The notes under the pieces were generated by a model, which worked only from the letters and a program-made list of their open reading frames with translations, was not told the origin of the DNA and searched no databases. Below, one piece after another: positions 1 through 57,918 of a stretch of 57,918 nucleotides of DNA (the stretch's first letter is position 1; each line of letters opens with the position of its first letter). This stretch comes from a virus. The position numbers and the translations under genes were made by a program. The stretch covers positions 1-57,918 of the IMG/VR virus record IMGVR_UViG_3300032799_000270. The stretch is one strand, 5' to 3'.

Positions 1-123
1 GCTACGATGAACTCATTGGTGTGGCCTGCGTTCGATCCGAGCCATTCGGCCGTGCCAGTCAGGAAGAACTGGAGGGTTCCGTGGCCGTCGTTGAAGTCGA
101 AATCTCGGTAGTGGGTCAGTTTA
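1..123. repeat. Terminal direct repeat, left copy
   Basis: These 123 bases are identical to the last 123 bases of the window. The simplest reading is that the sequence is a closed circle from an assembly graph, opened here. The repeat stops exactly at the outer end of a 17-bp inverted repeat (107-123), which suggests that assembly paths diverge at that point. It also lies inside a truncated PEP-CTERM gene. A true terminal redundancy is the alternative. Confidence 0.9.
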
Positions 124-1016: not shown

Positions 1017-1841
1017 ATGAACAGGCTGGACAGCACAAAGCGGGCGCAAGTGGTTGCGGCGCTGGTAGAAGGCAATTCGATCCGGGCCACGGTTCGCATG
1101 ACCGGGGTTGCCAAGAACACGGTTGCGAAACTTCTGGTAGAGCTTGGGGCCGCCTGTGCGGACTACTTGAACAGGGCTCTCGTCAACCTCCCCTGCAAGA
1201 GGATTCAATGCGATGAAATCTGGTCGTTCGTCGGAGCCAAGCAGAAGAACGTCACCCGCAAGATGGCAGAGCGACAGATCTGCGGGGATACGTGGACCTG
1301 GGTTGCGATGGACGCGGACAGCAAGTTGGTGTGCTCTTGGCTGGTCGGGAAGAGGGATGCCGGATGCGCCACGGAGTTTCTTCAGGACTTGTCGGGGCGC
1401 TTGGCAAATCGAGTGCAGCTTACGACCGATGGTCTGAAAATCTACCTGAACGCAATTATCGACGCCTTTGCAAACGACATCGACTATGCCATCCTGCACA
1501 AGCTCTACGGGACGGATCGGAAGACCGAAGCCCGATACAGCCCGGCGAAGTGCATCGGCTGCGAAAAACACGAAATGCTTGGGGAACCCGATCCCAAGCA
1601 CATCTCGACCAGCTACGTTGAGCGACAGAACCTCACTATGCGGATGCAGATGCGCCGGTTCACCCGGCTGACAAACGCCTTCTCGAAGAAGATCGAAAAC
1701 CATGTGGCCGCTATCGCTCTTCACTACATGCACTACAACTTCTGCCGCATCCATCAGACGCTCCGCGTCACTCCTGCGATGGAGGCTGGCCTTTCGGATC
1801 ACGTGTGGGAGGTTCAGGAGTTGCTTGCCCTTCTGTCTTAG
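1017..1841 (+). CDS. IS1-like DDE transposase
   Basis: The 274-residue protein has an N-terminal helix-turn-helix (about 16-45) and an RNase H-type DDE core. D66 lies in CDEIWSFVG, D138 in TTDGLKIY and E202 in SYVERQN, followed by the conserved MRMQMRRFTRLTNAFSKK region. This matches the IS1-like transposases common in acidobacteria and rhizobia. It appears intact. The mRNA would be leaderless, which may keep expression low. Its 3' end overlaps the convergent gene by 74 bp, and I could not identify terminal repeats tight around this gene, so it may not be an autonomous IS. Confidence 0.85.
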   Translation: MNRLDSTKRAQVVAALVEGNSIRATVRMTGVAKNTVAKLLVELGAACADYLNRALVNLPCKRIQCDEIWSFVGAKQKNVTRKMAERQICGDTWTWVAMDADSKLVCSWLVGKRDAGCATEFLQDLSGRLANRVQLTTDGLKIYLNAIIDAFANDIDYAILHKLYGTDRKTEARYSPAKCIGCEKHEMLGEPDPKHISTSYVERQNLTMRMQMRRFTRLTNAFSKKIENHVAAIALHYMHYNFCRIHQTLRVTPAMEAGLSDHVWEVQELLALLS

Positions 1842-2760
1842 GTATGTTCTGCACTATTTCACCTGCCTTTTTCAGGAACGCCTCTCTTTCGCGTGGAGTC
1901 AGTGTCTCTAGATCACCAGCGGCGATCGCCAAGGTTAAACCGGCCGGTACCCTTGCGTACGGATCATTGATGGTATTCAACCCCGCCTTCAGCATTGTTC
2001 TCACAACCTCTGTTACATGAGCTTTATGCAGATCCCGAACGCTTTCAGCAAAAGTGACAAGTTCCCGCTCTAGGCGCACCATCGACATTCCGGTATCGGC
2101 GCACGAAAGAAGGATCGCATTGACATAGCTATCGTAGGCACGAAGCCTGTCAGCCATTTCCCTGATGTATGCTTGGTCTTCAATGAAAATCCCATTTTGA
2201 CGCACAATAGCCACCGAAAACGGACCCTTCACGTAGTTTGATGTGTTCTCTGCCACGGTGAGCATGTATAACGCGGCCAATACTCCCTGGGAAACGCTGA
2301 TCTGCTCTCGGAAGAACTTTCTCAAAACGTGAGTGTACAGCGGGATCTCCCATCCCACCACCTCATATGCGTCAATGCGTATAAGGCGCTGATCTTTTGT
2401 GACCCATACCTCGTAGCCCTCTGACGACACCGCAGCTACTAGAAAACCAAGATACTTATCCTCTTCTGAAGCTGAAAAAGTAGAGACCTCATCCCTCTTG
2501 AATAACTCCAACTCTGTTTCGAAGATGTGCTGAAAGTCAATCAAAGAGGAACTGAGCTCAGTGGCCATTCGTCGCACCATCCGCTCCACGAATGAATCAA
2601 TCAACTCTGATAGGCCACTCCCGGCAATCACCACTGCGAACTGGCCCATCAGTTTCTGCTCTACTTTGTCCCGTGATGAGCGGTAGTACCCCGCAGTCTC
2701 TTGCGTGTTAGCACAGAGGACAACACCATCTGGGCAGCGAATTCCAGTGATCAACGTCAT
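1768..2760 (-). CDS. Proteasome-like Ntn-hydrolase family protein
   Basis: This is a 330-residue protein. After the initiator Met, the sequence TLITGIRCPDGVVLCANTQ resembles the mature N-terminus of proteasome beta and HslV subunits, with Thr as a possible nucleophile. A lysine in SSRDKVEQK lies near the Lys33 position; the usual Asp17 is Asn. GQFAVVIAGSGL matches the next core strand. Activity is therefore uncertain. The C-terminal tail is proline-rich. The start at 2760 is supported by AAGGAGAG seven bases upstream; the open frame extends further but without a ribosome site. It is a cargo gene in the inverted-repeat segment. Confidence 0.6.
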   Translation of the reverse strand: MTLITGIRCPDGVVLCANTQETAGYYRSSRDKVEQKLMGQFAVVIAGSGLSELIDSFVERMVRRMATELSSSLIDFQHIFETELELFKRDEVSTFSASEEDKYLGFLVAAVSSEGYEVWVTKDQRLIRIDAYEVVGWEIPLYTHVLRKFFREQISVSQGVLAALYMLTVAENTSNYVKGPFSVAIVRQNGIFIEDQAYIREMADRLRAYDSYVNAILLSCADTGMSMVRLERELVTFAESVRDLHKAHVTEVVRTMLKAGLNTINDPYARVPAGLTLAIAAGDLETLTPREREAFLKKAGEIVQNIPKTEGQATPEPPTRDPKGQPPSQE

Positions 2761-2879
2761 ACGTCTCTCCTTGGGTTTGGCTTCCCAAGGATACCGCCGA
2801 TGCTTGAGCGGTACAACGGGCTGCTTGGGGTCACCCTTGGGAGCATGCTTCATCCCCTTGGTGCAAGGGGCCAGAATGT

Positions 2880-2896
2880 TAAACTGACCCACTACC
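2880..2896 (+). repeat. 17-bp inverted repeat, right arm
   Basis: TAAACTGACCCACTACC is the exact reverse complement of 107-123. It lies between the proteasome-like gene and the intact PEP-CTERM locus. Confidence 0.75.
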
Positions 2897-2979
2897 CCAC
2901 ATACGGGGCAAATCACCACCTCGCAGTTGCCGAAGTGATCGCCGCTCGTGGCTCCGCTACCCATTATCCGGCTACCTGC

Positions 2980-3025
2980 GGGGAACGACACCTACGGTTT
3001 TTTCCCCTCCCCTTTTTCTTCCCTC
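2980..3025 (+). repeat. Hairpin/polypurine repeat, copy A
   Basis: One of six related copies. On the minus strand, a purine-only tract of about 25 bases is followed by an imperfect hairpin with arms GGGGAA and TTCCCC around ACC-GTA-GGT. It lies just past the stop of the intact PEP-CTERM gene and may act as its terminator or an RNA 3' structure. Confidence 0.65.
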
Positions 3026-3056
3026 AAAACGGAGCGGCGGGCTGGAAACGTGCCAC

Positions 3057-3599
3057 TCAGGACTTCTTCTTCAAGCGGCTCAGACCGAGTAGCCCCAATC
3101 CCACCAGCACCAAGCTCGCTGGCTCGGGGACTGGGTTGATCTGCTCGGTCCAGACATGGGGGGCACCGTCGCAGTTCCGTGAGGCTGGGCCGGAGTAATA
3201 TGTGCTCCCCGTCGTGAGGTCTCGGAACTGGATTATCAGTTCCACATCCGGCGTGTAGCTGAACGTCACGGGGCCGGGCGTCGAAGCGTTGATGTGCTGG
3301 CCGGCTACGATGAACTCATTGGTGTGGCCTGCGTTCGATCCGAGCCATTCGGCCGTGCCTGAGGTGAGGAACATAATCGTGCCGTGGCCGTCGTTGAAAT
3401 CGAAATCTCCATTGATCCCTGGAGCCGTGTTGCCCCAGTTGTCATTGGCCCATACGTCCCAGGTCGAGCCTGGTATGCCGATGATGAGACGGCCGATGCC
3501 CGGGTCGGAAAGGCTCAACGGAATCCCGTCTGGATTCATAACGGGTGTGGCCTGTAGCGAGAAGCAGGCCAGGAACAGGACTGCGAATAGGTTCTTCAT
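3057..3599 (-). CDS. PEP-CTERM sorting-domain protein (intact copy)
   Basis: The 180-residue protein has a Sec signal peptide (MKNLFAVLFLACFSLQATP), a beta-rich middle with DFDFNDGHG and GNTAP, and a C-terminal PEP-CTERM signal: VPEPASLVLVGLGLLGL followed by SRLKKKS. In the known system, exosortase cleaves at this signal and the protein goes to the cell surface or exopolysaccharide of a Gram-negative host. No exosortase is encoded here, so the host's would be used. The promoter is TATACT (minus strand of 3641-3646) with its -35 in the XRE operator, so it appears repressor-controlled. GGAGACC precedes the ATG. Such a gene on a phage-like element is unusual. Confidence 0.9.
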   Translation of the reverse strand: MKNLFAVLFLACFSLQATPVMNPDGIPLSLSDPGIGRLIIGIPGSTWDVWANDNWGNTAPGINGDFDFNDGHGTIMFLTSGTAEWLGSNAGHTNEFIVAGQHINASTPGPVTFSYTPDVELIIQFRDLTTGSTYYSGPASRNCDGAPHVWTEQINPVPEPASLVLVGLGLLGLSRLKKKS

Positions 3600-3640
3600 G
3601 TGGTCTCCATTTCAAGTTTCGTTTTGATCCGTTCTCCTTC

Positions 3641-3685
3641 AGTATACCCCTCCTCTTGACTGATGGTCAAGCCTCATGTTATGCT
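3641..3685. promoter_or_regulatory. Divergent promoters sharing one palindromic operator
   Basis: The palindrome CTTGAC-TGATG-GTCAAG (3655-3671) carries a -35 box in each arm. Rightward, TTGACT (3656-3661), an 18-bp spacer and TATGCT (3680-3685) serve the XRE gene. Leftward, TTGACC, an 18-bp spacer and TATACT (3646-3641) serve the PEP-CTERM gene. A repressor bound here would block both. A near-identical 16-bp site lies at 48052-48067. Confidence 0.75.
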
Positions 3686-3691
3686 TTAGAC

Positions 3692-4000
3692 GTGGCCAAG
3701 CCCACTACCAAAGATCCTCTGTTGCGGCTGGTGAACCCGGTCCAGGACGCCCTGAACCGCATGAGCTATTCGGACATCGCCCGGAAGAGTTGCATGACGC
3801 TCAGCTTCATCTCGCTGCTGTTCCGCGGGCGGCGCCACGCCAAAGCCGAGACGCTGAGCAAGATCGCCAAAGTGCTGGGAGTGACGATGGATGAGCTGCA
3901 CAGTCATCTCTCGAAGCTCGGCAAGGATGGCCGGCGGTACGGCTGGGGGAAGGCGCAAGTGCTACGCAGCAAACAACGGACCACTGAGATCGAGACATGA
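3692..4000 (+). CDS. XRE-family repressor-like regulator
   Basis: This 102-residue protein has a clear helix-turn-helix of the Cro/cI type (about residues 23-75): MSYSDIARKSCMTLSFISLLFRGRRHAKAETLSKIAKVLG. The basic C-terminal tail has no known domain. The GTG at 3692 is chosen because it lies six bases after the -10 box, which would make the message leaderless. It probably represses itself and the divergent PEP-CTERM gene, and through the matching site near 48.05 kb the parB-containing operon. It is a candidate master regulator of the silent state. Confidence 0.8.
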   Translation: MAKPTTKDPLLRLVNPVQDALNRMSYSDIARKSCMTLSFISLLFRGRRHAKAETLSKIAKVLGVTMDELHSHLSKLGKDGRRYGWGKAQVLRSKQRTTEIET

Positions 4001-4146
4001 AGATCAGATGGTTACCTTGGATGTGCTCCATCTTCAGAGAGGCCATGATCGCTGACTATGCAAATCCCATAAGGAAGAACCACTGGGCTTGGTTTGTATG
4101 GTGGCTCGGAGCAAAACTCAAGCGTCGAGTTGTCTCAGCCGCTTGA
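3997..4146 (+). CDS. Small tryptophan-rich protein coupled to the XRE gene
   Basis: A 49-residue frame starts in an ATGA overlap with the XRE stop. It is rich in Trp and basic residues (starting MKIRWLPWMC; HWAWFVWWLG near the middle) and ends in LKRRVVSAA. It could associate with membranes. A tiny hydrophobic or basic partner behind an XRE gene recalls toxin-antitoxin and superinfection-exclusion pairs, but nothing proves that. It overlaps the 3' end of the convergent recombinase gene by 29 bp. Confidence 0.5.
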   Translation: MKIRWLPWMCSIFREAMIADYANPIRKNHWAWFVWWLGAKLKRRVVSAA

Positions 4147-4714
4147 GCACGGTACTTCTGGAAACCCCCAGTGAGTTGGCCATCATGGCCAGGCTGTAGC
4201 CCTTCTTCTGCATCTTGGCGAGTTGTTTCGTGTTGATCGTCAAGGGGCGCCGTCCGAAAGTCTTGCCCTCCAGTTTGCACCTGGCGATCCCCGCCTTGAC
4301 CCGTTCCGAGATCCGGTTGCGCTCCAAAGCAGCCACAGCCGCCAGAATCGCCATGACGGCCTCCCGGAAGGGCCCCAGCGTGTCGAGGTACTGTTCCTGG
4401 AGGCTCAGGAAGCGGATACCCATGCGATCAAGCTCCTTGAGCCCGTGGAGCGTGGCGTAGGCGCCTTCTCGGCTGAAACGGTCCAGGCTCCAGAACAGCA
4501 AGAGATCCCACTTCCGGCCGGGCTTGGCGGCATCCTGGAAGAGCCGGTTGTAGGCTTCGCGCTGCTTGCCCTGGCTTGCCGATTCCCGGTCTTCGTACAC
4601 CTGGGCTACTTTCCAGCCCTTCGACTGGGCTAGGGCCTGGAGCTGCAAGAGCTGGTTGCGGGGGTCCTGGTCCTTGTCACGGCTCGAGACGCGGATGTAG
4701 AGGGCGCAGGTCAT
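4118..4714 (-). CDS. Serine recombinase (resolvase/invertase family)
   Basis: A complete 198-residue small serine recombinase. The catalytic Ser lies in YIRVSS (Ser10), with arginines in WSLDRFSREG, a long E-helix region, and a C-terminal Hin-like helix-turn-helix (GYSLAMMANSLGVSRSTVLKRL). Known relatives resolve cointegrates or dimers, or invert DNA. In a plasmid-like element it could resolve dimers. It ends the 12.6-to-4.1-kb operon. Its first 11 codons are duplicated 317 bp upstream as the start of the neighbouring gene, and its ATG overlaps that gene's stop (ATGA). Confidence 0.9.
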   Translation of the reverse strand: MTCALYIRVSSRDKDQDPRNQLLQLQALAQSKGWKVAQVYEDRESASQGKQREAYNRLFQDAAKPGRKWDLLLFWSLDRFSREGAYATLHGLKELDRMGIRFLSLQEQYLDTLGPFREAVMAILAAVAALERNRISERVKAGIARCKLEGKTFGRRPLTINTKQLAKMQKKGYSLAMMANSLGVSRSTVLKRLRQLDA

Positions 4715-4718
4715 CGGG
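4686..4718. repeat. 33-bp direct repeat, copy 1
   Basis: The true start of the recombinase gene plus a few upstream bases. An identical 33-bp copy lies at 5003-5035 in the same orientation, so 284 bp of unrelated coding sequence sits between two copies of the recombinase start. Confidence 0.9.
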
Positions 4719-5031
4719 ACTCAAGATTCTTCAGTTGTTTTGTGGATGCTTCTGCCATCGTCGCTTCTCCCCATAAGACACCCTTCTCGTACTTGCCGCA
4801 TCTGGCACAGAGCCGCTCCACATCCGTCATCCCGGTCCCCAGAAGGGCAAACTCCGGTAGCCCCATGCAGCACGCCAACAGCAATAGCATATTGAATTTG
4901 AGAGCAAGGGCGCCGTCCTCGAATTTAGGAGGAGGGTTGAAGTTGGTGGTCGCAATCCAGTCATGTCCCTTTCTGCGGCACTTGCGTTTGCGGAAGAAGC
5001 GGGAGACGCGGATGTAGAGGGCGCAGGTCAT
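4711..5031 (-). CDS. Chimeric small protein with a borrowed recombinase start
   Basis: This 106-residue protein opens with MTCALYIRVS, identical to the recombinase, then changes to unrelated sequence. It has a basic stretch (RFFRKRKCRRKGHDW), a hydrophobic helix (MLLLLACCMGLPEFALLGTG) and a Cys pair (CARCGKYEKG). The start lies in an ATGA overlap with the gene upstream and its stop overlaps the recombinase ATG. It looks like a gene inserted into the recombinase 5' end with duplication of 33 bp. Function unknown. Confidence 0.6.
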   Translation of the reverse strand: MTCALYIRVSRFFRKRKCRRKGHDWIATTNFNPPPKFEDGALALKFNMLLLLACCMGLPEFALLGTGMTDVERLCARCGKYEKGVLWGEATMAEASTKQLKNLESR

Positions 5032-5035
5032 CGGG
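5003..5035. repeat. 33-bp direct repeat, copy 2
   Basis: Identical to 4686-4718. This copy supplies the start codon and first 11 codons of the chimeric gene. Confidence 0.9.
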
Positions 5036-5219
5036 CTTGCCGCTTTATGGTGCGTGCTTTCTTAGAGGCGGCGTTCGCCAGATCATAGACGCCATACTGT
5101 TTTGCCCACCGCATGACAGTCTCGACCGTGGCCAGTCCTCTACATCGTCGGAGCACATCCCAGTAGGTTTCTACCTCAGAGCTGGAGGGATTTGGGAACA
5201 GGCGCATTTTGGGGGTCAT
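5028..5219 (-). CDS. Small unknown protein
   Basis: A 63-residue soluble helical protein (TYWDVLRRCRGLATVETVMRWAKQYGVYDLANAASKKARTIKRQAR). The middle could form a winged-helix or HTH-like helix pair, and the tail is basic, so nucleic-acid binding is possible. Both ends overlap neighbouring genes through ATGA junctions, which strongly supports translation. No family recognised. Confidence 0.6.
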   Translation of the reverse strand: MTPKMRLFPNPSSSEVETYWDVLRRCRGLATVETVMRWAKQYGVYDLANAASKKARTIKRQAR

Positions 5220-5518
5220 AATCCGTCTACTTCAGGGGAACGCAACCTACGGTTTCTTTCCCCTGGCCCTTTTCTTCCCTTCAGCCAGGCGTGCGCGCAG
5301 GCTGAGCAGAACCACCGCTTCGGAAGCCTCTTCCCCGGTTTGACATGGAAGACATGCCCGCACTTCAGGGTCAGCACGACCCGTAGTCCGGTTCCCAGAT
5401 TCTCGGGCGGCTCGGAGGAAACCACCCGGCGCGGAAACGCGAAGCGGAGCCAGTGGGCGAGCCGGTAGGCAGGCGGGGCTGGTTTCTGCCACTCCGGTTT
5501 AGAGTCGAAAGTCATCAT
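5216..5518 (-). CDS. Small protein with possible zinc ribbon
   Basis: This 100-residue protein starts MMTFDSKPEWQ in an ATGA overlap with the gene upstream. The second half holds LKCGHVFHVKPGKRLPKRWFCSAC, in which two Cys and His sets could bind zinc. Its last about 15 codons lie in hairpin-repeat copy B, read in another frame than the tail of the 5805-6101 gene. Function unknown; a structural or nucleic-acid role is plausible. Confidence 0.6.
   Translation of the reverse strand: MMTFDSKPEWQKPAPPAYRLAHWLRFAFPRRVVSSEPPENLGTGLRVVLTLKCGHVFHVKPGKRLPKRWFCSACAHAWLKGRKGPGERNRRLRSPEVDGL
5235..5282 (+). repeat. Hairpin/polypurine repeat, copy B
   Basis: Same layout as copy A, here overlapping the 3' end of the 5216-5518 gene. 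The arms GGGGAA and TTCCCC are kept although the loop-side bases differ. Confidence 0.65.
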
Positions 5519-5804: not shown

Positions 5805-6101
5805 TCAGTTACCTGATTGGGACGCAACCTGCGGTTTCTTCCCCCTCGCCCCCTGCTTCCCTTCCGCTTCCAGCTCCTGCAAGAGTTGAGCTTTATTACG
5901 CGCCAATCTTCTGCCCAGCCTTGCCAGGGCGGGCACTTCTCGTTTCAGTTGGGCCAACAATGCTTCCGCGGTCGAGAATTCAATTTGTGCAGTCTTCACA
6001 TGCAGCTTTGCGCGATCCAGATACGAAGCGCCCGTGTCGAAGTGCGTAAGCGCGGAAGCCATCATCGACGATTGCAGTTCGTCCAGATGTGGCAGCTTCA
6101 C
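5805..6101 (-). CDS. Helical small protein ending in repeat-encoded tail
   Basis: A 98-residue, mostly alpha-helical protein (LDRAKLHVKTAQIEFSTAEALLAQLKREV). It starts at GTG behind a near-ideal AGGAGG site. The last 15 or so residues (GARGKKPQVASQSGN) are encoded by hairpin-repeat copy C, so the repeat has become the C-terminus. Start overlaps the upstream stop (GTGA). Function unknown. Confidence 0.6.
   Translation of the reverse strand: MKLPHLDELQSSMMASALTHFDTGASYLDRAKLHVKTAQIEFSTAEALLAQLKREVPALARLGRRLARNKAQLLQELEAEGKQGARGKKPQVASQSGN
5819..5864 (+). repeat. Hairpin/polypurine repeat, copy C
   Basis: A shorter-arm version (GGGA with TCCC) of the same repeat, lying in the coding end of the 5805-6101 gene. 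On the minus strand it encodes GKKPQVAS, also found at copy D. Confidence 0.6.
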
Positions 6102-12924: not shown

Positions 12925-13422
12925 TCAATCCCGGCGTGCGATCCAGGCTACCGCCACGACCCCCAGGCCGGCCAGCCAGACCCAGAGGGGAATGTTCTCC
13001 AGGTTGGGGATGATGGAGGCTAGTTGTGGCTCGACCGAGCCTGTCAGCGGCGCTGTGACGCCGTAGACCTCGGCTCTCCCCAGAACGTCCTGAGCGTACT
13101 GCCAGGATTCGGGAGGCGTGGTCCCCCGGGCCATGTTCCCCGGCCCGCCGTTGTAGGCCGCCAAGGCTTTGGTCCAGTCGCCGAACTGCCGGTAGAGCTT
13201 GGAGAGATAGGCAATTCCGCCTTCGATGTTTTCGGTTTCATTGTACGGGTTCACGCCCAGGTCCGAAGCGGTCCCCGGCATGAGTTGGAAGACGCCCACT
13301 TCTCCGGCCCTGCCGCGGGCGCCCTGGTTGAAGCCCGATTCCTGTTGAGCGACGGCCAAGGCCAAAGCCGGGTCTACCCCGTAACGCAGCGCGGTCTCGC
13401 GGATCTGGTCCTGGATGGCCAT
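12925..13422 (-). CDS. Membrane-anchored lytic transglycosylase
   Basis: 165 residues. An SLT domain comes first: AVAQQESGFNQ (catalytic Glu28), GEVGVFQLMPGTASDLG, and AYNGGPGN. A single C-terminal membrane helix follows (PLWVWLAGLGVVAVAWIARRD). It cleaves the glycan strands of peptidoglycan. A transglycosylase anchored this way recalls virion-membrane enzymes such as PRD1 P7, though a host-lysis role is equally possible. It sits next to an M15 peptidase. The start has CAGGAGTGG upstream and follows the previous stop by one base. Confidence 0.85.
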   Translation of the reverse strand: MAIQDQIRETALRYGVDPALALAVAQQESGFNQGARGRAGEVGVFQLMPGTASDLGVNPYNETENIEGGIAYLSKLYRQFGDWTKALAAYNGGPGNMARGTTPPESWQYAQDVLGRAEVYGVTAPLTGSVEPQLASIIPNLENIPLWVWLAGLGVVAVAWIARRD

Positions 13423-13423
13423 G

Positions 13424-13948
13424 TCAAGCTTCCACTCCTGACACGTCAGGGAAGATTCTTGGGAGCACTTGGGCCAGGGCCACGGTTCGGCCGTCCTCGT
13501 CGTAGCCCCATTGAACCCGGGCCAGAGTAGCCCGCACATCCACGTGGACGTAATCAGGATGCCCCTGACGGCCCTTGGAAGATTCTGGAGCGGCTGGAGG
13601 AGCCAGGCCGATGCCTTGGAAGCCGGGAACCTGGAGCGCGGCCTGGTAAACCTCCCCAAGCGGTCGCGTGGGACATTGCACGTCGGCCGCCCGGCCCGGT
13701 AAGCCCGTATGAGGGTTGTAGAGGTGCTGGCTCGACGCCTTGCCGCCCTCATGCTTGTTCCAGGCGGCACAACGGCAACCGCTGGTGATGAGGAGCCGGT
13801 GTTCCTTTTGGCCTTCCGTGAGGTTGGCATTCAGGATCGCTCGCCAAGCTTCCAAGCCCTCGATCAACTCAGGGGCTATCAGCGGCTCCCCGCAGTTCCC
13901 ACAGTGGCACTTGAACTCATTCGAGTCGAAGTGGGCCGAGAGCTTCAT
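13424..13948 (-). CDS. Peptidase M15A-like endolysin
   Basis: 174 residues. Zinc ligands of the M15 family are recognisable: H75 in SSQH, D89 in GRAADV and H135 in YVHVDV, with ITSGCRC in the usual strand. Family members cleave D-Ala peptide cross-links in peptidoglycan. Extra Cys (CHCGNCG) near the N-terminus may hold another metal or disulfides. No signal peptide. Together with the transglycosylase it forms a wall-degradation pair. Confidence 0.85.
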   Translation of the reverse strand: MKLSAHFDSNEFKCHCGNCGEPLIAPELIEGLEAWRAILNANLTEGQKEHRLLITSGCRCAAWNKHEGGKASSQHLYNPHTGLPGRAADVQCPTRPLGEVYQAALQVPGFQGIGLAPPAAPESSKGRQGHPDYVHVDVRATLARVQWGYDEDGRTVALAQVLPRIFPDVSGVEA

Positions 13949-24927: not shown

Positions 24928-25794
24928 TCACACCGTCTCTTGCCGGCGGATGCCGTGGAAACAGATCTGATAGGTGGACGGCAGCAACGGGGCTGTCAAC
25001 AGGCTGGTGACTTCAAAGCGGATGAACGTCTGGCGCCGGTAAAGCACCGAAGGAACCGGGAACACCGGGTTGTAGAAGTGGACCAGACCCGAGGCCGCGT
25101 CGTTCAGGTAAACGTCCAGTACCGGAGCGTTCGACAACTGCTTCCCCCGCTCATCGAAGAGTTGCAGCTTCACTTCAGAGTCCGGTACCGCATTGGTCGG
25201 CACTCCGGCCTGCGCCGTCCGAATGATCGTGATGCGCTGAAGCTCAAAGTCGCAACCTTCGGTTATCGGGAACGAGAACTTGCGGGGTTCGGCATCCGTG
25301 CCGGCCCAAGTCACGTTGAACGCCTGAACGTAACTGAACGGTCGCTCGATATACTTGTACTCGCTTTTCCCCGGATATGCGATCTCTCCCCCGGGAGGTT
25401 GCAGGTAGCGCCTCACCCCCTGAAAAGCGATCTGCGCAAAGAAAATGGTGACCATGCCCGCGACCCGGTTAGCTCTGGCCACCGTGTACAGATCCATGGC
25501 CAGCAAGCCGGCCGGCGTTATGAACCGCTCCGGGGCGATGGGGTAGGTTCGGGGCATGACGAAGCCGGCATTGGCCCCAGTCAAGGGAACCACGCTGGCG
25601 CGGAACTGAACCCGGGCCGCCAGTTTGTCGGCTCCCATGATCTGACGCAACGCGAAACCCGCGTCATTGTCGGCTACTCGGGTGTCGATGTTCGAGTAGC
25701 TCGCTCCATCGGTGAGCGCGTCCCCGTCGTAGACGTGCATGTAGGGCAGGTCGTAGTAGCCCGCAGGCGTTTGGTACTCGGCTAGTTGGAACAT
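24928..25794 (-). CDS. Tandem beta-domain protein, candidate double jelly-roll capsid protein
   Basis: 288 residues that appear to be two related beta-domains. The first ends IAFQGVRRY near residue 125 and the second ends ICFHGIRRQ at the C-terminus. Each has an xDFxxxR-like opening and a late P-rich strand (YPIAPERFITPAGLLAMDL; YNPVFPVPSVLYRRQTFIRFEV). The 25822-26250 gene is a one-domain version ending VLRGAKRYRL. Tandem related beta-barrels are the architecture of double jelly-roll capsid proteins in the PRD1-adenovirus lineage. The fold is my inference from repeats, not shown. Confidence 0.6.
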   Translation of the reverse strand: MFQLAEYQTPAGYYDLPYMHVYDGDALTDGASYSNIDTRVADNDAGFALRQIMGADKLAARVQFRASVVPLTGANAGFVMPRTYPIAPERFITPAGLLAMDLYTVARANRVAGMVTIFFAQIAFQGVRRYLQPPGGEIAYPGKSEYKYIERPFSYVQAFNVTWAGTDAEPRKFSFPITEGCDFELQRITIIRTAQAGVPTNAVPDSEVKLQLFDERGKQLSNAPVLDVYLNDAASGLVHFYNPVFPVPSVLYRRQTFIRFEVTSLLTAPLLPSTYQICFHGIRRQETV

Positions 25795-29060: not shown

Positions 29061-31332
29061 TGCCTGGATCTTCCACACGGTATGCGCCTCCAGAGATGCT
29101 CAACAGCTTGTTGATCGGGTCATAAAGGAGGAACGGTTGACGCCCTGATTCCTCCCCAAGTTGGTGTTCATAGTCCGTTAACTTGAAGTTCTGAAACCCC
29201 TTTTCTGTTTGATAAACGAGCGAGGTCAACACCCCGATCGCCATGGAATCCTTCAGCCACTTCTCGCCGTCCATCTTCAAGGCTTTCAAATCCAACTCCT
29301 GATCGCCGCCTTCGATGTACAACTGCTGGCCGTCTTCCGAACTGCACAGGTTGGGAGCGCCCTTTGTGAAGCTGATTGTGGCCTCCAGGTTGGTCAGCGT
29401 GGCGACCTTCAATTCGACCAGGAGCCCCAACTGAGTGAGCCACTCGTGCTCCCGCTTCTCGGTGACGATCTCCAGGGTTTCGCCTGGAGGCTTCCCGTGG
29501 AAGTCTTCGTAGAGCGCAGCGGCATCGGATTCAGGATTACTTCGCCCTCTACCCACCAAACTATTCCAGGAGTTTACAGCATTGTCCGTTTCAGGAAACC
29601 TCACCTTTTTTTCCAAACGGGAATGGAGTGTCCCACGACGTGCTGGCTGGTTCGGGTCTGAGCTGATAGTCCCGCCAGGATGCAGCGCGGGGCTGGGGAC
29701 CTCCACGTAGAGAGGCTTGCCAAAAGGTTGGTCCCCAGGACCGTATGCTCTGCCGCGAATCACCGCTACCGGCAAACCATAACTGCTTGCACTGTGCTTC
29801 GTGGTCAGCCGAACTTCAACAGCACGCCCTTTGGCGTCGTAGGTTATGACCCTTTCGTCTCTTGGCGGATTCCCGGCACGTCGAGCCTTGGCCGCAATTC
29901 GCTGAAACCGCTTCGTGCCGTACTTGCGCCTCCCGATCCACGCCGCCAATGCACCAGGGTCTTCCACGCCGGGCCGGGCCGCAAGTTTCGACTCCAGGGC
30001 AGCGAAGCGTTCGCCAGAGCCGAGATCGTCCTCAGGATTCCGCCGCCGCATGAGCAGGCCCTGGCCGGTCACGGTAGAGATATGACCAATGAGCTTCTTG
30101 TAATTGGGAACGCCGTAGGCGCTCTTGATCCGGTAGATGTTGCCGGTCCCCCGGTCGAGCATAAATGCGCCGCTAGTGCCTTCATCCAGCATGGCCCACC
30201 GCTGCTTGTACTTCACGGTATGCGGATAGTACGTATCGTAGTTGAGGTTCGGGGCATCATGCTCGAATCTGGCACGACCGGCCTCATGCCAGTCCTTCAA
30301 AAGCACGTCCACCTTGGACTTCCACTCTTCAGGCCAATCGGGAGCAGGATTCTCATACGCCTCGCACAGGTCCTGCGCCGTCATGGCCGCCGCCTGCTCG
30401 TCAGGGGTGGCCTCCTGAAACTCTGGCCGGGTGGTCATGCCCAAGTGCTCATCGTAGGAGGTAATGGCGTCGGCTACGTCGGGGGCGGGGTTCTGTCTCC
30501 GAATCTGCCGGATGAAACTGTCAAGCAGATTCTGCGCCTCGGCCTCCGAAAGCCCCGAAACGTCGTAGACCTCTCCCGACCCGCCGCCCATGAACACCTT
30601 TACCCCATGGGAGGACATCAGCCGGTAAACTTTACGGGCTTGGTCAATTGAGGTCCCTGCAGATGGGCTGTTCACGAAGGTTCGGAAAAGTTGTTTGTGC
30701 GGTGGGTCCACGTCCGCCCATCCGACGATGTGAATAGGTCCGAGGTCTTGTGGATAAAAACCGGGGGTGGGGTTTACCTTCGCCCTTGCCTCGTCGTTCC
30801 ATCCACGCATGAAGTCGCCCCAGGCGTATCCCCACTCTTCACGATCCGCAATACTCGGTGTGAGATTGACTGTGCCGTGTTGGGCAGCAGCATAACGAAG
30901 TTTGGAGCGACCGGCGCGGTAGGCATCGCTTTGATGGGCAGGTTGCGGGTTCGGCCTTGTCCCCGGCACAATCGTCCTGAACTCCTTGTACTTCCCCGGC
31001 GACTGCTGCCGGAACCGCCAGAAGGTGGCGCCCTCATCCTTGCCGCTGCCCGTGAATCCATGCTCCTGAAGCCAGGTCTTCGCGGCGTCTCCAGTCCACT
31101 TCAGCTTGTCGAAGATCACGGACTGAACTTCGGAGATCCGGCGACCGGCTTTCCGTGCGATGCCCAGCACGAACTTGATGCCGCTGTCGGGATTCGCCAT
31201 AGCTCCGATCAGCAACTCCACGTCGGGGACGGGAGCGGCGAGCAGTGCTCCGACCTTGGCCAAGGTTGAAGGCCGATGTTTGGCGGCCCGGTGGATGGCA
31301 TGATGCTTACGGGCTGTGGCGTGTCGTGCCAT
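29050..31332 (-). CDS. Large multidomain protein with NP-linked modules
   Basis: 760 residues, the largest protein here. A basic N-terminus (MARHATARKHHAIHRAAKHR) precedes domains separated by eight NP-containing linkers (ANPDSG, RPNPQP, VNPTPG, QNPAPD, ENPAPD, RNPEDD, GNPPRD, SNPESD). No membrane segment and no catalytic motif. The NP linkers recur in neighbouring genes and might be cleavage or docking sites. It is probably an internal virion protein. Starts in a TAATG overlap. Confidence 0.55.
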   Translation of the reverse strand: MARHATARKHHAIHRAAKHRPSTLAKVGALLAAPVPDVELLIGAMANPDSGIKFVLGIARKAGRRISEVQSVIFDKLKWTGDAAKTWLQEHGFTGSGKDEGATFWRFRQQSPGKYKEFRTIVPGTRPNPQPAHQSDAYRAGRSKLRYAAAQHGTVNLTPSIADREEWGYAWGDFMRGWNDEARAKVNPTPGFYPQDLGPIHIVGWADVDPPHKQLFRTFVNSPSAGTSIDQARKVYRLMSSHGVKVFMGGGSGEVYDVSGLSEAEAQNLLDSFIRQIRRQNPAPDVADAITSYDEHLGMTTRPEFQEATPDEQAAAMTAQDLCEAYENPAPDWPEEWKSKVDVLLKDWHEAGRARFEHDAPNLNYDTYYPHTVKYKQRWAMLDEGTSGAFMLDRGTGNIYRIKSAYGVPNYKKLIGHISTVTGQGLLMRRRNPEDDLGSGERFAALESKLAARPGVEDPGALAAWIGRRKYGTKRFQRIAAKARRAGNPPRDERVITYDAKGRAVEVRLTTKHSASSYGLPVAVIRGRAYGPGDQPFGKPLYVEVPSPALHPGGTISSDPNQPARRGTLHSRLEKKVRFPETDNAVNSWNSLVGRGRSNPESDAAALYEDFHGKPPGETLEIVTEKREHEWLTQLGLLVELKVATLTNLEATISFTKGAPNLCSSEDGQQLYIEGGDQELDLKALKMDGEKWLKDSMAIGVLTSLVYQTEKGFQNFKLTDYEHQLGEESGRQPFLLYDPINKLLSISGGAYRVEDPGIID

Positions 31333-31637
31333 TAGCGTTTCCTGGTCATCATGAACAGCGTGGCGGCTCCCACTCCGGCAATCACCAGCCACATGGCGGG
31401 CGCCCGGCAGTAGACCGTATCGCCGGCCGATTGCAGATCCTCGTACCACTTGCAAGGAGCTTCGACCTGGCGGGCGTAGTCCCGTTCGATATAGACCGTG
31501 GGCGACGGCTGGTAAGCGGGGTACATCATGGGGAATGGAGGCCCCGGTGGTGGACCCGGCGGTGGCGGCCACGGTGGAGGTGGTGGAGGCGGGGGTGGTC
31601 CGTTGCCGATCCCCAGAAGTGTTGCATTGGTCATCAT
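31332..31637 (-). CDS. Proline-rich tail-anchored protein
   Basis: 101 residues. After a short start comes a long polyproline tract, then YIERDYARQVEAPCKWYED and a C-terminal membrane helix (MWLVIAGVGAATLFMMTRKR). AGGAGGACAGC lies before the ATG, which overlaps the upstream stop (TGATG). First of the run of C-anchored small proteins. Confidence 0.6.
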   Translation of the reverse strand: MMTNATLLGIGNGPPPPPPPPPWPPPPGPPPGPPFPMMYPAYQPSPTVYIERDYARQVEAPCKWYEDLQSAGDTVYCRAPAMWLVIAGVGAATLFMMTRKR

Positions 31638-32818
31638 CAAGCTGTCCTCCTGTAAGCTCCGGTATGCCCGTAGTGCCGGCGCCTCAATCTCCAAATCTCC
31701 CTGGAAAACCGGGAGCGGTCATCGGCGGAAGTCGCATGAACCATCTCGACGGCCGCCGGAACCGTCATGGCATCCGATTCGCCTTTCATGGTCAGCAGAG
31801 CCAGAGCGTACTGCCGGTAGCTTTCCGCTCCCCTGGCTGCGGGGTTGTATTGCCGGGTGAGACGCCCATATCCAGAAGCCCGCAGAGTGTTGGCGTGCAG
31901 CATGTTGCAACTTCGGCAAGTCCAGATCAGATTTTCAGGCCGGTCGTTCTCTTCGTGCCCATCGACGTGTCCGATCTGAACCTGCTGATTAGTTCCGCAG
32001 AAGGCGCAGAGTTTCGGCCCGATGGGAGGATTGGCGTTGGCCCGGTATCGGTAGGCTCGGTCGGTGAGGTGGAGTTGCGGATTCCTCCGCTGCGCATCCA
32101 CAAACCGCTTGGCGTCCTTCAGGCTATCAAACCGACTGTCGGGGTCAATCGACACCTGATACCCGTCCCCAACCCTGAAAATCCTAGTGCCCTTGTAGCC
32201 GAAACTGGGGGCCTGGGCTGTTCTGTTGTCACCCTCCTCGACCCCACGCCAGAACTCGCGCTCCAGCCTGCTGCGGATCTGCGGAGACCGCTTGTCGAGC
32301 TTGGCCTTGACTAGCCACGGCTCAAATCCTGAGGTGTCCCCGATCCGTGCTCCGGCTTGGCGTGCCGCTACCATGGCCTCGGAGAAGGTGGGACCGGCGG
32401 GGTTTTGCTCTGCCATGCTTCGGGCTACGGACTCCAATATTTCATCCCTCAGGTTTGGATTCGTCAAAGGTTCGGCAACAGCAGCCGGATGGTAAACGGC
32501 ATAGTCCAGACTCCCGATTCCGTGTTTAGGGCCAGACCAACCGTGCTGTAGCCACCATTGCAACGCGAATGCTCGTGGCACAATCAACTGTGGGACGCCG
32601 GGCATCCGAATTTGTTCCTTGAGCACAACCTCTGTAAGTCTTGAATGCCTTGGGTTCTGCTCGGCGCAGTAGTAATGCACCTTCCCGCCCTGCTCGCTGA
32701 ACTTCCAGGTCTGGCCCGGAAGAATCGGCTTGTCGCACACCTTGCAACGCGAGGCCAGGGCGTAGAACTTCTTCAGGCTGGGTGCCCCGACTGCCCGTCT
32801 TGTGTCCTGTGCCGCCAT
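31637..32818 (-). CDS. HNH-domain protein with N-terminal zinc site
   Basis: 393 residues. An N-terminal LIM-like site (CKVCDKPILPGQTWKF ... VHYYC) and a C-terminal HNH-like core (LCAFCGTNQQVQIGHVDGHEENDRPENLIWTCRSCN). The middle has NP linkers as in its neighbours. The nuclease core looks complete, so DNA cutting is possible, for instance in genome processing or exclusion of rivals. Operon position suggests a virion-linked role. Start has GGAGGCAAG upstream. Confidence 0.65.
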   Translation of the reverse strand: MAAQDTRRAVGAPSLKKFYALASRCKVCDKPILPGQTWKFSEQGGKVHYYCAEQNPRHSRLTEVVLKEQIRMPGVPQLIVPRAFALQWWLQHGWSGPKHGIGSLDYAVYHPAAVAEPLTNPNLRDEILESVARSMAEQNPAGPTFSEAMVAARQAGARIGDTSGFEPWLVKAKLDKRSPQIRSRLEREFWRGVEEGDNRTAQAPSFGYKGTRIFRVGDGYQVSIDPDSRFDSLKDAKRFVDAQRRNPQLHLTDRAYRYRANANPPIGPKLCAFCGTNQQVQIGHVDGHEENDRPENLIWTCRSCNMLHANTLRASGYGRLTRQYNPAARGAESYRQYALALLTMKGESDAMTVPAAVEMVHATSADDRSRFSREIWRLRRRHYGHTGAYRRTA

Positions 32819-32822
32819 ACTG

Positions 32823-33311
32823 CTACTTGTTCTTGCCTCCGGCAAAGACCAACAGTGCAATCACTGCCGCCCCGCCCAGCAACAGCACAGGCGGAAAGCT
32901 GGACAGAAAAGCCCGTGCCTGCACTAAAGGATTGCTCGACCGAGCTACCCCTGCCGGTACGTGACACTGGATGTCTTCCCAGCCTATTACTCCGTCAACC
33001 AAGCGCGCCCGGTAGAATGGCGAGTCTGTCCCAATATCCGAAACCCCGAGTACGCAGCAAGTCCCCAACCGTTTCTGCTCTTCTGCCGTTGCTTTGCGGT
33101 CGATATACGTGATTCGGGCCATGCGCGCTTGGTACTCAGCTTCCTCTCCGGCGCTGTACCCCCCCGTGCCGATCACATCTGCCATCAGTTGCGCTGCCGG
33201 TCCATCTGCGTACACGTAATCATCGCATGCGCCCGAGGCGCGTTCGGAGAAGTTGTAACCTACCCCCACTAATCCTTCTAGCCCGAGCATGTGCTGATTT
33301 ATGTGTGCCAT
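32823..33311 (-). CDS. Tail-anchored membrane protein
   Basis: 162 residues. A soluble N-terminal domain with several Cys (GACDDYVYADG, GTCCVLGVSD), an SNPLVQA linker and a C-terminal helix (PPVLLLGGAAVIALLVFAGGKNK). A 13-bp motif (TTTAGAGTCGAAA) lies just before the ATG. Unknown function; possible virion-membrane protein. Confidence 0.6.
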   Translation of the reverse strand: MAHINQHMLGLEGLVGVGYNFSERASGACDDYVYADGPAAQLMADVIGTGGYSAGEEAEYQARMARITYIDRKATAEEQKRLGTCCVLGVSDIGTDSPFYRARLVDGVIGWEDIQCHVPAGVARSSNPLVQARAFLSSFPPVLLLGGAAVIALLVFAGGKNK

Positions 33312-33320
33312 GTTTCGACT

Positions 33321-33488
33321 CTAAACTCCACCGATCCGGTACGGCTGGAACTGGACAACTGGCCCCTCTGCCTCAACCGGCATGTAGGACTCGGGAACAC
33401 CCTTATTGACCGGCTCGCCTTTGTCCCGCAGCAGCAGCCAAGCCGCCAGAGCCACCACCCCGAGCATCACTACATCCTTCGTTTCCAT
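33321..33488 (-). CDS. Small N-anchored membrane protein
   Basis: 55 residues: METKDVVMLGVVALAAWLLL then a charged stretch and a short tail ending QPYRIGGV. It starts in a TGATG overlap. Probably a minor membrane component. Confidence 0.55.
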   Translation of the reverse strand: METKDVVMLGVVALAAWLLLRDKGEPVNKGVPESYMPVEAEGPVVQFQPYRIGGV

Positions 33489-33685
33489 CAGCGTTTCACC
33501 ATCAGCTCCCACCGCGAAGGCAACCGAACCCCTACGGCGAACGCCACCGCCTTGACCTCCCGCACAATCACCGGAGTGGAACTGAGCATGCTGGCGGTCT
33601 TACGCGAGGGCGTCACGAAACCCTGCACGCCGGGAATCCGGTACTTGAAACCGCCGCGGTCCTCGATTGCCTCCACCGTTATCAT
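33488..33685 (-). CDS. Small soluble protein
   Basis: 65 residues (MITVEAIEDRGGFKYRIPGV ... VIVREVKAVAFAVGVRLPSRWELMVKR), beta-rich, coupled at both ends. No family recognised. Confidence 0.55.
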   Translation of the reverse strand: MITVEAIEDRGGFKYRIPGVQGFVTPSRKTASMLSSTPVIVREVKAVAFAVGVRLPSRWELMVKR

Positions 33686-33906
33686 TGGTTCCTCAGCAAA
33701 AGCAGCGCCGCGACTCCGACGCCAGCGACCAGCCACCAGTTGAACTGGCAGACCGGATACACCGTGCCGATGTCGCAACCCGAAAACGGCCCGGTGTCGC
33801 TCGTGCATTTGATCGGTCGTTCGCGCTCCCACAAAGCACAGGGAGCCAGTTTCGGTATCGGAACTTCATCGGTCATCAGCATCGCCGTTCCAAGTGAAGT
33901 CAGCAT
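33682..33906 (-). CDS. Tail-anchored membrane protein
   Basis: 74 residues: N-terminal hydrophobic start, a Cys-containing loop (KCTSDTGPFSGCDIGTVYPVC) and a C-terminal helix (WWLVAGVGVAALLLLRNQ). ATGA and TGATG couplings. Loop disulfides fit an external or periplasmic side. Confidence 0.6.
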   Translation of the reverse strand: MLTSLGTAMLMTDEVPIPKLAPCALWERERPIKCTSDTGPFSGCDIGTVYPVCQFNWWLVAGVGVAALLLLRNQ

Positions 33907-34118
33907 CACGCCTCCCACGGGCTCCGCATGGGCCGAAACTCGACCGCCTGATTCATCGCCTCTTGCCTCTCGGCACACCCGCCGCACTGCCGAATGTGGA
34001 GGGCGTCGGTCAACTGCTTGATGAGATCCCCACCGCGTACCCGTTCCTGAAGGAATGGGACTGGGATGCTCAAGAGTTGACGAACGCCCCCCTCTTCGGT
34101 GTTTGGGAAAAAGCTCAT
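33906..34118 (-). CDS. Small soluble protein with a CxxC motif
   Basis: 70 residues (LLSIPVPFLQERVRGGDLI, HIRQCGGCAERQEAMNQ). Coupled at both ends by overlaps. CGGC could bind metal. No family recognised. Confidence 0.5.
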   Translation of the reverse strand: MSFFPNTEEGGVRQLLSIPVPFLQERVRGGDLIKQLTDALHIRQCGGCAERQEAMNQAVEFRPMRSPWEA

Positions 34119-34591
34119 ACGAACTTCTGATACCTCCTCGGCCTTGCGGCCCTGATACTGGCCACTTTGGCTTTGTACTGAGCGCGGGCGGCTGCAATCT
34201 CTGATCTACGTTGACTTCCGCCGCCACCCGTGAACAGCACCAGACCGACGATGCCCACCCCTACTACGGCCCAGGTCTTCCAGTCGCCCATTGACGAGGT
34301 GACGGATTTCAGCACGTCATCAACCGCCCCGTCCAAACCACACAACCCGACTTCGCAACGACGAGCAGGGGGGCCGCAACCGAGACCAACCGGCCCCAGG
34401 GGATTTTCCTCAACCGCTTCGGCCAGTTTCTGTTTGGCCAGGATTTCAAGCACAATCGGGTTGGGAGCCCAGGTCGAGATGCCGCTCACGATGGCGCTCA
34501 ACCCGAAGGCCCGGCGGATCGGGTTCTCGGGGATCGACCACAGGGCCGGCAGGAAGACCCCGATGCCGGGAGCGAGATGGGATGTCAGCAT
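34115..34591 (-). CDS. Membrane protein with SIPENP motif
   Basis: 158 residues. An N-terminal hydrophobic region with WSIPENPIRRAFGLSAIV, a Cys loop (CGPPARRCEVGLCG), a membrane helix (TWAVVGVGIVGLVLFTGGGG) and a basic tail (SIRAARPRRYQKF). SIPENP and its DNA match the end of the basic 27176-28042 protein, so the two may interact or derive from each other. AAGAGGTGACT precedes the ATG. Confidence 0.6.
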   Translation of the reverse strand: MLTSHLAPGIGVFLPALWSIPENPIRRAFGLSAIVSGISTWAPNPIVLEILAKQKLAEAVEENPLGPVGLGCGPPARRCEVGLCGLDGAVDDVLKSVTSSMGDWKTWAVVGVGIVGLVLFTGGGGSQRRSEIAAARAQYKAKVASIRAARPRRYQKFV

Positions 34592-34593
34592 AG

Positions 34594-35013
34594 TCACCTC
34601 TTCATCAAAAACAGCACTACAAGCACTGCCCCGCCGATGAGGAGAAGCGGCCCGTAGTCCTTCAGCACTTTCTCGGCTTCTTCGGCCGTCAAGGGAAGCT
34701 TCCCTTCGGGCGCCCACTCGCCACTGGCTTGTTGCTCGGCCAGATACTTGCGCCAAGCCTCCTGAGTTCGTTCCAGGCTCGACTGCGACAAATCCACCAC
34801 CTCATGCCCGGTGTAGATGGCTTCGCCTTCGGCAGTCATAGCCGGAGTCCCTGGAGGTTCAAACGGGATGGCTTTGGGTATCTCTCCGTATTGGTGTTCC
34901 TCGTAGACCTCGGCGGCGAACTCCCCGCAGAACATCCTGGCCAACCAGGAGCCTTCAGGAAAAATGCAGCCCTTCAAGTTCGCCAACCCGGGATGGAGGA
35001 TCAGATGCGCCAT
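34594..35013 (-). CDS. Tail-anchored membrane protein
   Basis: 139 residues. A soluble domain with CIFPEGSWLARMFCGEF and a helical region, ending in a membrane helix (YGPLLLIGGAVLVVLFLMKR). Starts one base after the previous stop. Unknown; fits the anchored-protein series. Confidence 0.6.
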   Translation of the reverse strand: MAHLILHPGLANLKGCIFPEGSWLARMFCGEFAAEVYEEHQYGEIPKAIPFEPPGTPAMTAEGEAIYTGHEVVDLSQSSLERTQEAWRKYLAEQQASGEWAPEGKLPLTAEEAEKVLKDYGPLLLIGGAVLVVLFLMKR

Positions 35014-35014
35014 G

Positions 35015-35242
35015 TCAGTCCCTTATCACCAGTAGAGCCACCACTCCAAACGCCCCCAAGATCCACCATTGCAAGTTGCTGGCCTTCGGCTTCTCTGCCG
35101 TGCCGGTTGCGGAGAACGAAGGCACTCGGCAAATCTCTTCACAGTTCCCCGCCCCAGTCTCCAGGCAACCGTAATAGCACGAGGCTTCAAGCGTAAAAAA
35201 CTCGCTCACCGTCTGCTGCCCCAGACCGAGGCTAACGTGCAT
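35015..35242 (-). CDS. Tail-anchored Cys-rich membrane protein
   Basis: 75 residues. CYYGCLETGAGNCEEIC suggests two disulfides, followed by a linker and a C-terminal helix (WWILGAFGVVALLVIRD). Overlaps the upstream gene by 11 bp. Confidence 0.6.
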   Translation of the reverse strand: MHVSLGLGQQTVSEFFTLEASCYYGCLETGAGNCEEICRVPSFSATGTAEKPKASNLQWWILGAFGVVALLVIRD

Positions 35243-35480
35243 GCTGCCCTCCCAGTCTCACCCGCCCGTAGCCGTCCATGTGGAACCGGAGCTTTCCGAA
35301 GTTGCTCCGTAAGGCCCGGTCGATCTCCTTCTTGTGCGTCCCGTAGATGCCCCGTAGCAACAGGTTGGGAGAACCTTCGACCAGACGCTCCAGAACGCGG
35401 ATCGCCAGGATGTCCACCCGTCCGGTCGGGTCGGGCCCGCGCCGGCGAACAGGAACCGAATTGGTCTTGGCCTTGGCCAT
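35232..35480 (-). CDS. Small basic protein
   Basis: 82 residues. MAKAKTNSVPVRRRGPDPTG, then VDILAIRVLERLVEGSPNLLLRG and KKEIDRALRSNFGKLRFHMDG. Helical and basic with no membrane segment. Start in a TAATG overlap with the 35480-35659 gene. May bind nucleic acid. Confidence 0.55.
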   Translation of the reverse strand: MAKAKTNSVPVRRRGPDPTGRVDILAIRVLERLVEGSPNLLLRGIYGTHKKEIDRALRSNFGKLRFHMDGYGRVRLGGQHAR

Positions 35481-35659
35481 TACCGCTTCCTTGCTTTTGC
35501 CTTTCTGCTGGTCTTCTTCTTTCTGCCGCCGAAGATCAAAGCTCCAGCGGCCACCGCAGCGGCAAGCCACCACCAGGCCGGAAACGAACACGGAACTTCG
35601 GCTTCAGCCAGGGCGCTCTCGTAGCAGCCCTCGGGAATCTGCCAAGCGTAGCAGTCCAT
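35480..35659 (-). CDS. 59-residue tail-anchored membrane protein
   Basis: MDCYAWQIPEGCYES, then a helix (PAWWWLAAAVAAGALIFGG) and a very basic end (RKKKTSRKAKARKR). The stop overlaps the next ATG (TAATG) and the start follows the previous stop closely. Short enough to be missed by automatic annotation. Confidence 0.6.
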   Translation of the reverse strand: MDCYAWQIPEGCYESALAEAEVPCSFPAWWWLAAAVAAGALIFGGRKKKTSRKAKARKR

Positions 35660-35668
35660 GATCGGCTC

Positions 35669-36073
35669 CTATGCCCAACCCAATGGCATGAGGTAGCCCA
35701 TGCCGCTGATGCCGGCCGTCACCCGCCTTGCGAGGTACTCTTCGGCGTAGATCGCACCTGGGTCCGCCCCGCCCGCCAACAGATCGCGCTGCTGCTCCAC
35801 GCCGGTCTTCTGGGAGACCATCCAGTTCCATTCGCCGATGGTGAGCCGGCCGTCCCAACCTGCCGCTGAGCGGCCTTGCGCGAAGTTGAACAGGTCGTTC
35901 CGGGAGATGGCCGCGAAGTCCGCAGGCTTGGCTTGCTCGACCGCCGGTTTCTCGGCTTCCTCGGCTGGTTTTGCGGCAACTGCTCCACCGAGCAGGCCGC
36001 TCGTCTGCAAGTACCGATAGACCATGTAGCCCGCGCCGCCGATGGCCAGCCAAACGATCAGATTGCCCTTCAT
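35669..36073 (-). CDS. N-anchored membrane protein
   Basis: 134 residues: an N-terminal membrane helix (MKGNLIVWLAIGGAGYMVYRYL), an Ala/Glu/Lys/Pro linker, and a small helical domain (NDLFNFAQGRSAAGWDGRLTIGEWNWMV). ATG overlaps the upstream stop (ATGA). Confidence 0.55.
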   Translation of the reverse strand: MKGNLIVWLAIGGAGYMVYRYLQTSGLLGGAVAAKPAEEAEKPAVEQAKPADFAAISRNDLFNFAQGRSAAGWDGRLTIGEWNWMVSQKTGVEQQRDLLAGGADPGAIYAEEYLARRVTAGISGMGYLMPLGWA

Positions 36074-36315
36074 GATGTCCTCCGTAACAGCACGTAGCCC
36101 GTTCCCAACAGAAGAGCTGCCAGGATCGGGTTCCGACCGATCCAGCAGTTGAAACCTGAGAGCCAATCGGTCGGAACGAAATACTGAACCACCGGGGCGG
36201 GCTTGGCCTTGATGGTGGGATGCCCCAAGCTCTGCTGGGCCGCTTCCATCATCTCGGGTGTGACCGTGCCGGCCCACATGCACAGATCGGTGTCGATGAT
36301 GCCCAGGCCCGTCAC
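36070..36315 (-). CDS. Tail-anchored membrane protein
   Basis: 81 residues. A helical start (IIDTDLCMWAGTVTPEMMEA), SGFNCWIGRNP, then a C-terminal helix (ILAALLLGTGYVLLRRTS). Starts at GTG in a GTGA overlap. Confidence 0.55.
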   Translation of the reverse strand: MTGLGIIDTDLCMWAGTVTPEMMEAAQQSLGHPTIKAKPAPVVQYFVPTDWLSGFNCWIGRNPILAALLLGTGYVLLRRTS

Positions 36316-38485: not shown

Positions 38486-38488
38486 CGT

Positions 38489-38800: not shown

Positions 38801-38802
38801 GT

Positions 38803-39273: not shown

Positions 39274-39276
39274 CGT

Positions 39277-48016: not shown

Positions 48017-48039
48017 GCTGACTCTCTCCACGTTTCCAG

Positions 48040-48067
48040 TTTGCCATAATGTTGACCATTAGTCAAG
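48040..48067 (-). promoter_or_regulatory. Promoter with second XRE-type operator
   Basis: On the minus strand CTTGACTAATGGTCAA matches 15 of 16 bases of the operator at 3655-3670. TTGACT serves as -35 and CAAACT, 17 bp on, as a weak -10. The shared site implies one repressor for both loci. Confidence 0.65.
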
Positions 48068-57458: not shown

Positions 57459-57473
57459 AAGTCGGCTACTTGA

Positions 57474-57520
57474 GGGGAACGACACCTACGGTTTCTTTCC
57501 CCTCCCCTTTTTCTTCCCTC
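57474..57520 (+). repeat. Hairpin/polypurine repeat, copy E
   Basis: Nearly identical to copy A and, like it, directly after a PEP-CTERM stop; the two loci are paralogous. Confidence 0.7.
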
Positions 57521-57551
57521 AAAACGGAGCGGCGGGCTGGAAACGTGCCAC

Positions 57552-57918
57552 TCAGAACTTCTTCTTTAAGCGGCTCAGACCGAGTAGCCCCAATCCCACC
57601 AGCACCAAGCTCGTCGGTTCGGGGACTGGGTTCTGCTCGGTCCACACATGCGGGGCACCGTCCGGGTTGCGGCTGGCCGGGCCTGAAAAGTATGTCGTGC
57701 CGGTGGTCAGATCCCGGAACTGGATTATCAACTCCACATCCGGCGTGTAGGCGAACGTCACGGGGCCGGGGGTAGCGGCGTTGATGTGCTGGCCGGCTAC
57801 GATGAACTCATTGGTGTGGCCTGCGTTCGATCCGAGCCATTCGGCCGTGCCAGTCAGGAAGAACTGGAGGGTTCCGTGGCCGTCGTTGAAGTCGAAATCT
57901 CGGTAGTGGGTCAGTTTA
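57552..57918 (-). pseudogene. Truncated PEP-CTERM copy 2
   Basis: The frame matches the intact copy from DFDFNDGHG to the C-terminal VPEPTSLVLVGLGLLGLSRL, including GTAEWLGSNAGHTNEFIVAGQHIN. Similarity ends where the inverted repeat begins (position 106-107 on the circle), so the signal peptide and first ~65 residues are lost. The chimeric 5' part is at 2-161. Probably a decayed duplicate left by insertion; it could serve as recombination substrate with the intact copy. Confidence 0.75.
57796..57918. repeat. Terminal direct repeat, right copy
   Basis: Identical to 1-123; see the left copy. Removing one copy closes a circle of 57,795 bp. Confidence 0.9.

Follow-up and report, generated by a model that had tools for sequence, protein, structure and literature searches.

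Why should a virus genome carry, beside a phage-type regulator gene, a gene whose product ends like an exosortase substrate? We addressed this question in the IMG/VR record IMGVR_UViG_3300032799_000270, whose 57,918 bases were analysed as a whole (the window), following a preliminary description that had read the locus as a PEP-CTERM surface protein gene under the control of a phage-type repressor. The best explanation is that a temperate or plasmid-like phage carries a host-derived accessory gene, which would be controlled by the XRE regulator and would depend on the exosortase of the host; to this account as a whole we assign a probability of about 0.5. The features concerned are collected in table 1.

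Table 1. Positions of the features discussed, numbered from the first base of the window.
Feature	Position	Strand	Description
IS1-like transposase gene	1017..1841	+	profile match
Proteasome-type NTN-hydrolase-like gene	1768..2965	-	PF00227, E 1.8e-5; next leftward gene after PEP-CTERM
Dispersed gene-junction repeat	2969..3024	-	directly downstream of the PEP-CTERM gene; common to related viral contigs
PEP-CTERM protein gene	3057..3599	-	180 aa, intact; Pfam and NCBIfam profiles
PEP-CTERM tail PVPEPASLVLVGLGLLGLSRLKKK	3063..3134	-	motif, hydrophobic helix, basic end; profile match 3069-3134
N-terminal leader-like stretch MKNLFAVLFLACFSLQA	3546..3599	-	sequence, judged by eye
Predicted PEP-CTERM promoter TTGACC-18-TATACT	3641..3670 (3670-3641)	-	consensus promoter scan
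Candidate operator O1, perfect palindrome CTTGAC-TGATG-GTCAAG (CTTGACTGATGGTCAAG)	3655..3671		contains both predicted -35 boxes
Predicted XRE promoter TTGACT-18-TATGCT	3656..3685	+	consensus promoter scan
XRE/HTH_3 regulator gene	3692..4000	+	102 aa, GTG start, divergent from the PEP-CTERM gene
Small serine recombinase/resolvase	4118..4714	-	PF00239, E 1.1e-31; convergent with XRE, order as in G404 and L148
Candidate operator O2, GTTGACCATTAGTCAAG	48051..48067		intergenic, upstream of leftward gene 47840-48031
Second PEP-CTERM copy	57463..57901	-	88% identical DNA, without the first 64 codons

The PEP-CTERM gene and its viral setting

The assignment to the PEP-CTERM class made in the preliminary description holds, since the tail of the protein exceeded both curated cut-offs, with 30.4 bits against 20.7 for PF07589 (Pfam, PEP-CTERM protein C-terminus) and 22.8 bits against 16 for TIGR02595 (NCBIfam, PEP-CTERM protein). 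Read from the sequence, a membrane helix and a basic cluster follow the PEP motif (VPEPASLVLVGLGLLGLSRLKKKS). The tail is of the PEP-CTERM type and not the LPXTG type of SasX. The N-terminus has a charged start and a hydrophobic core, resembling a Sec leader by eye. A structure model of low confidence (pLDDT 41, too poor for a structure search) also ended in a C-terminal helix. The XRE protein contains an HTH domain (HTH_3, E 2.5e-10, 40.6 bits, cut-off 23). Among defence-system models, none matched the PEP-CTERM protein, and the XRE protein gave weak HTH matches only.

The virus is probably a phage of soil Acidobacteriota. Comparison of the genome with itself revealed a direct terminal repeat, positions 1..123 being identical to 57796-57918, from which a circle of 57,795 bases is expected. 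Its nearest relative was the 55-kb contig G404, in which most structural genes were about 54-80% identical, the resolvase 66% and the XRE protein 40%. The order of the XRE gene and its convergent resolvase was kept in three viral contigs (the window, G404 and L148), and in all three the XRE gene lay beside a divergent early unit, as is typical of a phage repressor; the regulator is a syntenic phage regulator, in agreement with what had been proposed. In G404 and L148, the place divergent from XRE was occupied by an early phage gene, which in G404 had no homologue in the window, and the PEP-CTERM gene was found in neither contig. Considering that the relatives have other genes in this place, the PEP-CTERM block occupies a variable site beside a conserved phage regulator. 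Host contamination was rejected because phage-specific elements, the junction repeat and the XRE gene, flank the PEP-CTERM gene on both sides.

Further properties of the virus were recorded. Both a ParB-like protein (43873-44745) and the resolvase are present. PHROGs scans of the window matched neither terminase nor portal nor HK97 capsid, and a search of both the window and G404 for Walker A motifs gave nothing convincing. A conserved structural protein of 288 aa (24928-25794) was modelled with low confidence (pLDDT 57), and the best matches of the model were double-jelly-roll capsid proteins (PR772, iridovirus, PBCV-1; tectiviruses), which hints that the virus might possibly be a large membrane-containing jelly-roll phage. 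With this protein as the query, no prophage of this type was found in 399 Terriglobia genomes. Some nine proteins (31332-40286 and 12925-13830 in the window; also in G404), an SLT transglycosylase among them, terminate in a membrane helix with a short, mostly basic tail. The junction repeat (45-50 bases, core GAAACC-GTA-GGTTTC) often covers the stop codon of the preceding gene and sits immediately ahead of the following start; besides the copies that adjoin the PEP-CTERM gene and belong to its second copy (57463-57519), it occurs at 5213-5280, 5811-5863, 49354-49404 and 52047-52095, and also in the distant viral contigs L135 and L148. The beginning of the resolvase gene has been copied onto the ORF that follows (4711-5031), which leaves an exact 33-base repeat (4686-4718 and 5003-5035).

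The second PEP-CTERM copy matches 2969-3409, junction repeat included. It spans the join of the circle and is truncated at its 5' end, with its break point inside the direct terminal repeat, and it forms an in-frame fusion with the antisense of a small plus-strand gene at 175-426 (464 to 57552 across the join). No terminal inverted repeats of the IS1-like gene were detectable, and distant relatives of the NTN-hydrolase-like gene were present in 23 of 299 Terriglobia genomes. The main rival to our account is that a host surface-protein gene was picked up by recombination, was duplicated and is now in decay, without being of use to the phage; its proximity to XRE would then reflect a variable insertion site. 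The truncated second copy, the IS1-like and other accessory genes nearby and the absence of the gene from both relatives are consistent with such neutral carriage; since only one virus has the gene, it may be recent, non-functional cargo, of which the second copy is already truncated. However, the frame of the complete copy is intact, its N-terminus resembles a leader, a GGAG precedes the start codon and the predicted promoter is good, and we consider neutral carriage possible but doubtful.

Divergent promoters and operator-like sites

The two predicted promoters overlap, so that only one polymerase at a time could use them, even without a repressor. The GTG of the XRE gene coincides with the expected transcript start, giving a leaderless-looking transcript. 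According to the preliminary description, the -35 boxes of the two genes are the arms of one palindrome that would silence both when bound, and the palindrome itself was borne out (O1). Taken alone, the O1 dyad is weak evidence of an operator, because opposed TTGAC boxes are naturally palindromic partners and when the 92-bp intergenic region was shuffled, 9% of the resulting sequences contained an equal dyad (perfect arm of at least 6, loop of at most 12). In both relatives the -35 boxes abut as well, but without a shared palindrome. All of this would fit a palindrome that is simply two opposed -35 boxes, with XRE acting elsewhere and the PEP-CTERM gene being either constitutive or governed by polymerase interference. 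A second site argues against that reading, which we regard as tentative: O2 is identical to O1 in 15 of 16 bases, and the promoter scan found no opposed promoter there.

On the minus strand, TTGACTAATGGTCAA (48052-48066) is one base off the O1 15-mer, and with at most one mismatch allowed, this 15-mer was found genome-wide only at O1 and O2. No such match occurred in 150 random sequences that had the length and dinucleotide composition of the genome; a fairer baseline is given by random 15-mers of this genome, 11 of 300 of which had a match elsewhere with at most one mismatch. O2 sits 20-36 bases upstream of the leftward ORF start at 48031, for which an in-frame ATG exists at 48016. The recurrence of a near-identical site lends moderate support to a repeated operator. 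Joint repression of both genes by XRE is thus plausible and was strengthened by the second site, while the binding of XRE to these sites is what we infer.

Host, exosortase and possible function

The best match of the IS1-like transposase (71% identity) came from Acidobacteriota, only slightly better than matches elsewhere, and its relatives are spread over many phyla, so that the host call is tentative. Exosortase, which the preliminary description had suggested should be sought in candidate hosts, was present in 89 of 151 Terriglobia genomes, under this tentative host assignment. It was not found in the virus or its relatives, and sorting would therefore depend on the host. Searches for relatives of the PEP-CTERM protein, made partly by exact peptides and therefore liable to miss distant ones, gave none in phage records, plasmids, GTDB contigs or IMG/VR (scanned twice). 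In 399 Terriglobia genomes and in 257 genomes from the order to which G004 (the Bryobacterales MAG of L007) belongs, the only matches, none of them close, were tail-driven or distant. The PEP-CTERM proteins of Terriglobia were distantly similar, mainly through the tail, and such similarity is normal for the class (PMC1569441). A host chromosome carrying the same block without the phage, which would have spoken for host sequence, was sought and not found, the identity of the host being tentative. Titles, abstracts and passages of papers that link PEP-CTERM to phages, prophages or auxiliary metabolic genes contained no description of phage-borne substrates.

Based on the arrangement of the locus, we hypothesized that the phage acquired the PEP-CTERM gene, probably from a Gram-negative host lineage, by insertion at the variable site adjoining the XRE repressor gene, where it would have become the first gene of a leftward early unit. 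Binding of XRE at O1 would repress both promoters, including that of XRE itself, and the PEP-CTERM protein would appear chiefly when the phage infects or is induced. The protein may be exported via Sec and then trimmed by the host exosortase, to be released or to stay attached to the surface. The sorted protein could alter the cell surface or matrix, and the simplest effect would be to hinder further adsorption. Such exclusion is a guess, as is any other change of the surface or biofilm. That the phage exploits the host exosortase by means of a repressor-controlled early protein that blocks competitors or loosens biofilm is correspondingly speculative.

The carrier state offers another possibility. 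If repression were weak or absent, the protein might be expressed in lysogens, altering their surface or matrix to the benefit of the host; the sorted surface protein SasX, borne on a prophage, is thought to act in this way in staphylococci (PMC8655729). This precedent, together with the surface-type protein, the accessory position and the promoter of its own, would favor lysogenic conversion. Nevertheless, the PEP-CTERM promoter overlaps both the XRE promoter and the candidate operator, which argues for silence of the gene when XRE is present and makes conversion rather unlikely. A virion or release component in the envelope is very improbable, since the gene is missing from relatives with the same structural genes and the several other virus proteins that end in a membrane helix and a basic end, which might suggest such a role, have no PEP motif.

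Comparison with known systems

The protein shares with the PEP-CTERM/exosortase (EpsH) substrates (Haft et al. 2006, PMC1569441) a C-terminus made up of the PEP motif, a hydrophobic helix and a basic end, as well as the leader-like N-terminus and the usual restriction of homology to the tail. Unlike them, it is borne on a virus, and the exosortase is not in the same genome. Here a sigma-70-like promoter is predicted beside the XRE gene; a sigma-54/PrsR site has been described for Proteobacteria. SasX/SesI, an LPXTG surface protein on the staphylococcal phiSPbeta prophage (PMC8655729), is likewise a phage-borne protein with a C-terminal sorting tail recognised by the host. The difference lies in the machinery, LPXTG and sortase A of a Gram-positive there, PEP-CTERM and exosortase of an outer-membrane bacterium here.

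The regulatory region resembles the CI/Cro-type divergent phage switches in its small HTH regulator, its leaderless-looking transcript and an early promoter that diverges at a candidate operator, but it has a single HTH domain and one site, and the early place is taken by a surface-protein gene. As an envelope-directed accessory gene with its own promoter that is absent from relatives, the PEP-CTERM gene is also akin to phage morons and superinfection-exclusion envelope proteins, among which we know of none that uses exosortase. In Gram-positives, phages are already known to carry genes for surface proteins that have sorting tails; an exosortase counterpart, of which to our knowledge there is no earlier phage-borne case, would be new and, if the account is true, would connect phages with the system by which abundant but hard-to-culture soil bacteria build their matrix.
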